From NCBI RefSeq assembly GCF_023897065.1, contig NZ_JAMHIV010000045.1, positions 1 through 64,000 on the forward strand: a DNA stretch of 64,000 nt, in the 5' to 3' direction. Below, piece after piece: positions 7,009 to 9,299 of the stretch. The stretch is from Crossiella sp. SN42. Lineage in GTDB: Bacteria; Actinomycetota; Actinomycetes; Mycobacteriales; Pseudonocardiaceae. Each line of letters begins with the position of its first letter. Position 1 is the stretch's first letter. Made by a program: the position numbers and the translations under genes. The notes under the pieces are model-generated. The model saw nothing but the letters and a program-made list of their open reading frames with translations, did not search any database and was not told the origin of the DNA.

Positions 7009-8427
7009 TTAGAGCTTTGCCCAGTCCCGTGCCTCGGTCAGGGCGCCCAGGAGGCGTTGGTGTTGTTCGGCTACTCGTACGGGGGCGGTGCCGCCGTGGG
7101 CGTCGCGGGAGGCGATGGAGCCTTCGACTGTGAGGACCTCGCGGACCTGGGGGGTCAGGGCTGGGTTGATGGCCGCCAGCTCTTCGTCGGTGAGGTCTTC
7201 CAGGCCGACGTTGCGGGTTTCGGCGGCTTGGACGCAGGCGCCTGCTGCTTCGTGGGCCACGCGGAAGGGGACTCCCTGGCGGACCAGCCATTCGGCGATG
7301 TCGGTGGCCAGGGTGAAGCCTGCGGGGGCCAGGGCGGCCAGGCGGGCGGTGTCGAATGTGAGGGTGGCCATCATGCCGGTCATGGCTGGGAGCAGGAGCT
7401 CCAGCTGCGTTACCGAGTCGAAGAGGGGCTCCTTGTCCTCTTGCAGGTCTCGGTTGTAGGCGAGGGGCTGCGCCTTGAGGGTGGCGAGGAGGCCGGAGAG
7501 GTTGCCGATGAGGCGGCCGGACTTGCCGCGCATTAGTTCGGCGACGTCCGGGTTTTTCTTTTGCGGCATGATCGAGCTGCCGGTGGCCCAGGCGTCGTTG
7601 AGCTTGGCGTAGCCGAACTCGGCGGTGGTCCAGATGATGACCTCTTCGGCGATGCGGGAGAGGTTGACGCCGAGCATGGCCACCACGAAGGCGAACTCGG
7701 CGGCGAAGTCCCGGCTGGCTACGCCGTCGATGGAGTTCTCGACTGGCGCGTCGAAGCCGAGGTCCGCCGCGACCGCCGCTGGGTCCAGGCCCAGGGAGGA
7801 GCCTGCCAGGGCGCCGGAGCCGTAGGGGGAGATCGCGGTGCGCTTGTCCCAGTCGCGGAGGCGGGAGACGTCGCGGAGCAGGGACTGGGCGTGCGCCAGC
7901 AGGTGGTGGGCCAGCAGGACCGGTTGGGCGTGCTGGAGGTGGGTGCGGCCGGGCATGACGGCGGTGGGGTGCTGAGCCGCCTGGTTGGCCAGGGCCTCGA
8001 CCACGTCCAGGGTGCCCGCGGCCACCCGGCGGGCGGCGTCGCGCAGCCACATGCGGAACAGGGTGGCGATCTGGTCGTTGCGGGAGCGGCCGGCGCGGAG
8101 CTTGCCGCCCAGGTCGGTGCCCGCGCGGTCCAGCAGGCCGCGTTCCAGTGCGGTGTGCACGTCCTCGTCGGAGGGGGCCGGGGTGAACGCGCCGGAGACC
8201 ACGTCGGCCTCCAGGGTGTCCAGGGCGGCCAGCATCGCGGGTAGCTCGGTGTCGCTGAGCAGGCCCGCGCGGTGCAGCACCCTGGCGTGAGCCCTGGAGC
8301 CGGCGATGTCGTAGCGGGCCAGCTGCCAGTCGAAGTGCGTGGAGACACTCAGCGCGGCCATCGCCTCGGCCGGTCCGGAGGCGAACCGGCCACCCCACAG
8401 CGGGGTGGCTTCCTTCATCTCGCTCAT
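7009..8427 (-). CDS. argH: Argininosuccinate lyase
   Basis: Last step of arginine synthesis: argininosuccinate to arginine plus fumarate. The 472-aa protein has the fumarase/aspartase superfamily regions intact: [22 protein letters not shown] and the signature loop [12 protein letters not shown] with the catalytic Ser. The ATG at 8427 overlaps the TGA of the ArgG-like gene (ATGA); a frame extension to 8451 adds eight residues and is not needed. It is the last gene of the operon, followed by a strong terminator. Unlike the ArgG-like neighbour all family residues look preserved, so this enzyme should be active. Confidence 0.96.
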
Positions 8428-9299
8428 ACTCCCTGCTTCTCGAAGTCCCACAACTGGGCTTGGTCGATCACCGCGCGGCCGCCGTGCAGCACCAGCCGGA
8501 CCTCGCCGCTGACCTGTTCCTGGGTGCCCAGCACAAAATCGTCCAGGGCGTCCTTGAGCGGGGAGGACCAGCGGCCGTCCTGCACCAGCTCGGTCCAGCG
8601 CCGCTCCACCTCCCGCTTGAACTCGGCCAGGTCGGGCTCCAGCACCGCGTGCTCCAGCGCCTGGTGCGCGGTGATCAGAGTGGTCGCGCCGGGGGCCTGG
8701 TGGATCCGGCCGACGCCGTGCGCGCCCGCCCGGCGGTTGAGCTCCTGGATGGCCTGCAGCACGGTGACGGTCTCGCCGTCGATGGCCACCGGCACACCCT
8801 GGTCGAAGGTGAGGGTCAGTTCGTCGGGGTCCCTCGGCCCGGTCTGGCTGGGGATGCGGGCCGGGCGGCGGTGCCAGATGCTCTGCTCGGCCTGGGTTGT
8901 GGGGTGCTCGGGCCAGGTGATGACCTCGAGGTCCGGGGCGAGGGCGGCGATCTCGGTGGTGAAGGCCGGGTCCGCGCGGTGGAGCGCGATGGTGCTCGCG
9001 TTGTGCTGCCGGGCCGCGGTCACCAGGTGCCTGGCCAGCAGCGGGCGGGACAGGACAGGGGTGAGCGCGTTGGCCAGCAGCGCGGGCAGGCAGTAGTGCT
9101 GGGCCAGCTCCTCGCGCGCGTCGATAGCCACCGCGGCCACCGCGCCCGCGGCCAGCGCCTGCTCCCTGGTGGCGGCCAGGTGCACGCCGCCCTGGCCCAG
9201 GTCGACGGCGACCGCGACCACCTCGGACCCGGTGAGCCCGTTGATGACCGCCGGGAGGTCCAGCTCCGGCGCGCAGGCCAGCACCACCCGCCTGGTCAT
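8424..9299 (-). CDS. Degenerate argininosuccinate synthase-like protein (probable pseudoenzyme)
   Basis: 291 aa against about 400 for ArgG, yet clearly homologous: [66 protein letters not shown] and [12 protein letters not shown] all have direct ArgG counterparts. The ATP pyrophosphatase loop (normally SGGLDTS) is APELDLP, the GKGNDQVRFE substrate segment is missing, a further stretch of some 25-30 residues after the ASLAPDL region is absent, the GIKSREIYE loop is deleted, and the C-terminal oligomerisation tail is gone. The frame is open, coupled by 4-base overlaps to argR and argH, and has normal GC-rich codon use, so it looks maintained rather than decaying. A real ArgG must be encoded elsewhere. 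A regulatory, chaperone-like or ArgH-binding role is inference. Confidence 0.85.

Follow-up and report, generated by a model that had tools for sequence, protein, structure and literature searches.

The arginine operon of the soil actinobacterium Crossiella sp. SN42, as found in the window (the whole stretch of 64,000 nucleotides analysed here), contains between argR and argH a shortened argG gene which lacks the catalytic motifs of an argininosuccinate synthase. This raises the question of why such a gene is present as an open reading frame in the operon. A preliminary description, made from the DNA letters, had proposed a pseudoenzyme retained for structure or regulation, perhaps by binding ArgH or ArgR. 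The features of the locus are given in Table 1.

Table 1. Features of the shortened argG gene and its neighbours in the window.
Feature	Position	Strand	Basis
Shortened operon argG, catalytic motifs missing, 291 aa	8424..9299	-	ORF, domain matches, alignment, same frame in G237
Residues 1-150, former ATP-binding (HUP) half, near-neutral in species pair	8850..9299	-	13 nonsynonymous, 6 synonymous codons
Site of lost PP-loop, APELDLP instead of SGGLDTS	9252..9272	-	Alignment
Residues 151-291, C-terminal half	8427..8849	-	1 nonsynonymous, 2 synonymous codons in pair
First kept segment, residues 161-193, includes ELNRRAG	8721..8819	-	Alignment
Second kept segment, residues 262-278	8466..8516	-	Alignment
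argR, repressor gene; 4-base overlap with remnant start (shared 9296-9299)	9296..9820	-	
argH, argininosuccinate lyase, ATG at 8427; 4-base overlap with remnant stop (shared 8424-8427)	7009..8427	-	

The frame has 291 codons counted from its ATG, and its product matches Pfam Arginosuc_synth (residues 4-128, E 7.7e-20) and Arginosuc_syn_C (residues 131-279, E 4.9e-38), both above cut-off, with scores of 72-131 bits. Six NCBIfam ArgG models also match, all well under their cut-offs, including TIGR00032 (157 bits versus a cut-off of 268) and NF001770 (180 bits versus 334). The Pfam matches and an alignment with eight full-length operon ArgGs of relatives confirm the assignment, in the preliminary description, of a 291-residue ArgG relative with a replaced PP-loop. 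The alignment also bears out the reported absence of the GKGNDQVRFE segment and of the DxVExRLVGIKSREVYE loop, and reveals the additional loss of the SPYSxDQN...VETG stretch; all three substrate segments (GKGNDQ, SxDxNxWGR and GxKSREVYE) are thereby missing. The four-base overlaps with argR and argH were likewise found as described. An assembly error is an unlikely source of the shortened frame, because the genome G237 (one contig), of the same species, has an identical frame length.

The remnant descends from the operon-type ArgG (NF001770/PRK00509), with which it shares its place in the operon and, over the aligned residues, 55–62% identity to the eight complete proteins; among solved structures, 4u7j and 4xfj are nearest to it in sequence. 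It differs from these proteins in the absence of the ATP loop and substrate segments, and in being about a quarter shorter, with relatives up to four fifths shorter.

The preliminary description had called for a search for a functional argG elsewhere in the genome, and had taken the lack of one as a sign against a pseudoenzyme. Two Arginosuc_synth matches are found in the genome of the window, i.e., the 291-residue protein and a 482-residue protein at G000:C22:60589-62037, unlinked to the arginine operon. The latter contains SGGLDTS and reaches 838 bits with NF003779, where the cut-off is 657; it is a complete ArgG of the E. coli type (NF003779/PRK05370; 1k92), predicted to be functional. This type belongs to the same superfamily as the remnant, but is a separate enzyme, about 30–34% identical to operon-type ArgG. 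Before the unlinked argG (L052:4545-4590) stand TTGCATAGTCATAC and GCATGCATATACTT, loosely resembling by eye GTGCATACTTATTCGCATG before argC (window 15100-15130); by such comparison we take all three to be possible ArgR boxes.

Within the species of the window, the remnants of the window and G237 are separated by codon changes of which 14 are nonsynonymous and 8 synonymous; argR differs by 1 and 8, and argH by 3 and 46, respectively. Nonsynonymous changes hit 13 of the 150 codons in the N-terminal half versus 1 of 141 in the C-terminal half (Fisher p 0.0015). The changes in residues 1-150 are compatible with neutrality (13 nonsynonymous to 6 synonymous, p 0.80), and the result for residues 151-291 rests on three codon changes. 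The Crossiella gene looks like an intermediate, with a drifting ATP-binding half and a C-terminal half that is held, on small numbers; it is apparently a displaced, dead ArgG of which the C-terminal half is protected.

A search profile built from 13 operon ArgGs, eight complete and five reduced, matched 387 of the 390 genomes of the family. A complete operon ArgG is present in 136 genomes, of which 122 do not have the second type of ArgG and 14 have both. The 251 profile-matching genomes without a complete operon ArgG nearly all have the second type; the exceptions are G345 (89% complete), which does not have it, and G090 and G347, where the matches are weaker and partial-looking. For analysis, 117 loci with a reported reduced operon ArgG were taken, and a search with the second-type protein found this type in all 117 genomes. 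At 116 of these loci argR, an open frame containing an ArgG remnant, and argH follow one another on the same strand. The exception, L193, has no callable frame, and a further remnant piece in another frame is observed at L184 and L185.

Measured from the first possible start, which makes the longest sizes uncertain, the remnants have 291, 291 and 211 residues in Crossiella, 321–359 in g25 (Saccharopolyspora), 149–151 in g19 (Kutzneria), 178 in g60, 67–495 in g21 (Saccharothrix) and 349 at one g22 locus. In g16, where classes were defined by size, 17 loci have 298–410 residues, 23 have 84–113, and 17 have exactly 122, a form common to 17 species. A form of 88–89 residues is present in 23 of the 24 g8 genomes, the 24th (G286, L302) showing a clean deletion. 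In the reduced ArgGs of twelve g16 species (L197-L208; 327–410 residues, starts uncertain), the ATP loop is degenerate, reading PGGHGSS or similar, and the C-terminal tail has TQAS at its end; omega is about 0.15 over the whole length of these proteins.

None of the 116 reduced frames contains SGGLDTS, GKGNDQ or SxDxNxWGR, versus all 31 intact controls (31 of 43 loci supplied, the rest being missed by the start motif). A looser PP-loop pattern is matched by 2 of the 116 frames, and GxKSREVYE is retained in 6, all of them among the 17 sequences of the 122-residue form; both occur in all 31 intact proteins. A strict pattern detects the FDxGxPVAxDGE segment in 108 of the 116 frames, and reading raises this to 114 (six variants among the eight missed). 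The count is biased: the segment was part of the profile used to find the loci, and remnants lacking it are therefore under-counted. The segment is absent from L186 (67 residues) and L187 (126 residues), and the strict pattern also misses 4 of the 31 intact controls. A placement test with ten reduced representatives gives a weak signal over the whole length (0.04) and none within the C-terminal half (0.62) that would mark out one special core. It is the C-terminal half that survives, and by this test no narrower core within it.

Not all relatives have kept a remnant. From the 134 other genomes without a complete operon ArgG, 60 were put to an ArgH search, which matched in 59, and 40 further second-type loci were analysed. 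In 33 of these 40, no more than 167 bases separate argR from argH. A small form is present at L286, longer argR-argH gaps with no clear ArgG match are found at L278-L280 and L306, and traces of the C-terminal part of ArgG at L292, L309, L311 and L312 (by eye for L292 and L311). Complete deletion of the operon ArgG is also common and the remnant can be lost; any function of the remnant is therefore dispensable.

Selection was assessed with codon models (GY, F3X4) in IQ-TREE for ten groups, which comprise 104 of the 116 sequences, with omega = 1 compared on the fitted tree at fixed kappa. In this dN/dS test of orthologues, which the preliminary description had proposed, omega ranges from 0.057 to 0.21, and omega = 1 is worse by 2dlnL of 53 to 750 and rejected in each group. 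The values are 0.057 for g8, 0.115 for the small forms of g16, 0.153 for its 122-residue forms, 0.149 and 0.057 for two sets of its long forms, 0.201 for g25 (6 of 7 sequences), 0.107 for g19, 0.153 for g60, 0.151 for Crossiella (three sequences, all there are) and 0.212 for g21 (9 of 17 sequences). For the core of one Saccharopolyspora group, a grid of omega values is best near 0.15–0.2, with lnL -1057 versus -1095 at omega 1. With 0.006–0.052 for argR and argH of the same genomes, the remnants are looser than their neighbours. Intact ArgG has an omega of 0.037 (6 g21 sequences) and 0.035 (3 g16 sequences), or of 0.050 and 0.047, respectively, for its C-terminal 182 codons; at 0.057, the 88-residue form is under a constraint similar to that of this C-terminal part.

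Plain counts of codon differences, which do not depend on a model, are 189 synonymous versus 69 nonsynonymous in 11 pairs of the 88-residue form from g8 (p 7e-52), and 95 versus 90 in 8 pairs of the 122-residue form from g16 (p 2e-11), where the two numbers are nearly equal; the unconstrained expectation, derived from the sites of the N-terminal half of the window gene, is about 72% nonsynonymous. In the same pairs argH has 364 synonymous and 62 nonsynonymous differences (g8), and 210 and 22 (g16). From the counts and the omega values it follows that the small forms are conserved proteins, held more loosely than the neighbouring argR and argH. A constraint at the RNA level was considered for the 88-residue form and rejected: its silent differences are not fewer, at 189 in 88 codons versus 364 in 240 argH codons in the same 11 pairs.

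The drift of the N-terminal half is not general, since the N-terminal part of the long forms in other groups is constrained as well, in g21 as much as the C-terminal part (omega 0.219 versus 0.230). The corresponding values are 0.164 versus 0.125 and 0.095 versus 0.028 in the g16 long forms, and 0.243 versus 0.136 in Crossiella, including G003.

These results bear unequally on the original proposal. Orthologues riddled with stops, which would point to simple decay, are not what the group shows: the frame is open in 116 of 117 loci and under purifying selection, and the stops, frameshifts and dN/dS near 1 of a decaying pseudogene are not its pattern. Catalytic loss followed by purifying selection, as in a conserved pseudoenzyme, is seen in the ten groups, and in the window for the C-terminal half only, on few changes. 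Retention as a pseudoenzyme thus agrees with the motif loss, the complete argG elsewhere and the selection in related remnants, but for the window gene itself the N-terminal half has a near-neutral ratio, the C-terminal half alone looks conserved, and the gene has been deleted in many relatives.

We consider it fairly probable, from sequence comparison, that the displaced operon ArgG has become a non-catalytic, protected fragment acting at the protein level, most plausibly via a partner. Both argG genes are present in the genome, and the unlinked E. coli-type gene would have displaced the operon gene and would now do its work. Freed from catalysis, the operon copy has lost the ATP loop and the substrate-binding segments through in-frame deletions, as the alignment shows. 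In Crossiella the N-terminal half would now be drifting while the C-terminal half stays constrained, as indicated by the one species pair; for the relatives, dN/dS shows constraint. Most likely, the gene is translated into a folded ArgG fragment, devoid of catalysis, with a role at the protein level. It may bind a partner of the old ArgG subunit, and since it sits between ArgR and ArgH, the candidates are ArgH, which is next on the same transcript, ArgR and the new ArgG.

The strongest rival to this protein-level role is a passive one, in which ribosomes passing from argR to argH hold the frame open, only in-frame deletions are tolerated, and the product is kept merely foldable and harmless and has no partner. 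Such a translation bridge would explain the graded sizes and the complete deletions, as well as the near-neutral N-terminal half in the species of the window. It would also explain the short overlap with argR at 85 of the 116 starts (4 bases in 46, 8 in 39; a further 18 overlap by 26). An overlap of 4 or 8 bases is also found in 7 of 13 intact loci, and the coupling is therefore probably ancestral. Against this explanation, a bridge should accept any residues, yet the remnants have omega values of 0.057–0.21, with the 88-residue form close to intact ArgG. The length of this form is also fixed, at 88 residues in 22 of the 23 g8 loci and 89 in one, though the distance to the ATG of argH varies from 12 to 28 bases. 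Finally, deletion of the remnant yields a tight argR-argH spacing in many relatives, and a translation bridge is therefore not needed. We regard the passive explanation as less likely than the protein-level role; it does not account for the constraint on the 88-residue form.

Late decay is a still less probable explanation. The displaced gene would be on its way out, and its low omega would be inherited from a recent working past. The near-neutral N-terminal half in the window species would fit this, as would the size series from over 300 to 77 residues with bare scars beside it, the loci without a frame (L193) or with pieces in another frame (L184, L185), and some small forms in which the profile match continues beyond the stop of the frame. 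Against decay, no member of the size classes common to 17–23 species has the ATP-loop or GKGNDQ motif, which places the constraint after the loss of activity; in addition, omega = 1 is rejected, and the small forms already contradict decay. That the 291-residue protein is still an argininosuccinate synthase, as its place in the operon and its Pfam matches could suggest, is hardly conceivable for a protein without PP-loop and aspartate/citrulline segments, which scores under all listed NCBIfam cut-offs and has a complete ArgG in the same genome.

Returning to the preferred reading of a protected fragment, reduced operon ArgGs are not limited to the family. Among the 394 genomes of the class that were searched, 30 were re-examined, followed by 12 of the genus g107, which belongs to another order. 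In six of these 12, a reduced operon ArgG is found between argR and argH, with sizes of 77, 77, 77, 90, 99 and 282 residues, and all six carry FDxGRPVAxDGETVT; the five small ones overlap argR by 4 bases at their start and have an omega of about 0.21. At these loci (L315-L320) the 77-residue forms begin directly at the FDxG segment. A genome of a further family (G798, L321) has a 290-residue reduced frame between argR and argH from which the FDxG segment is absent, and therefore speaks against one obligatory core. What this frame retains is the C-terminal end and, with GRGNDQ, parts of the catalytic middle.

In a tree of argR and the start of argH for 228 of 229 loci, with loss taken as irreversible, 30 maximal clades have no complete argG and 20 of these have a reduced frame. 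Some nodes are weak (support 2 for the Kutzneria clade), some intact loci occur in duplicate, and a transfer of the locus could raise the count. Groups with good support are g8 with 98, g60 with 100, Saccharopolyspora with 87 and g107 with 100. A single inherited reduction event was rejected, on the basis of 20 reduced-frame clades without an intact member, a count subject to several weak nodes and to inflation by whole-locus transfer. More tentatively, the remnants may form a recurrent class of C-terminal ArgG mini-proteins, located between ArgR and ArgH and tuning ArgH, ArgR or the new ArgG, of which the Crossiella protein would be an intermediate in the course of shedding its N-terminal half.

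A known example of a pseudoenzyme kept beside a working paralogue is HisZ with HisG. Like the HisZ/HisG type, the ArgG remnant is a dead relative under purifying selection among the genes of its pathway, but unlike it, the remnant is linked to displacement and domain loss in many lineages, and its partners are candidates only. The argininosuccinate synthase-related protein argG_rel (NF038212) is also ArgG-like in sequence, but is a full-length family, to which the reduced proteins scanned score 19–110 bits versus a cut-off of 425. The small proteins that were scanned against Pfam and NCBIfam hit no more than fragments of ArgG models. A literature search at a level short of full texts found nothing relevant on reduced ArgG proteins, and the small forms are today probably annotated as broken argG or as hypothetical proteins. 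Since the small copies in the relatives are still under selection, a use independent of enzyme activity is suggested. The loci offer many replicates of the fate of an operon enzyme gene once another gene can take over its reaction, i.e., deletion or reduction to a small protein under protection. Should a partner of these small proteins exist, ArgG would have a second role in arginine synthesis, non-catalytic and so far unseen.

Displacement may also take another form. In G006, G007 and G011 the E. coli-type argG match adjoins argH by coordinates, and at L299 the second-type argG lies inside the arginine operon. In some genera, an E. coli-type argG in the operon directly before argH seems to be an in-place replacement which left no remnant, whereas this gene is unlinked to the operon in Crossiella and others. 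In addition, near-full-length ArgG-like genes with intermediate scores are observed in G102, G201, G283, G304 and G361, some of which might resemble the nitrile synthetases found among solved structures.
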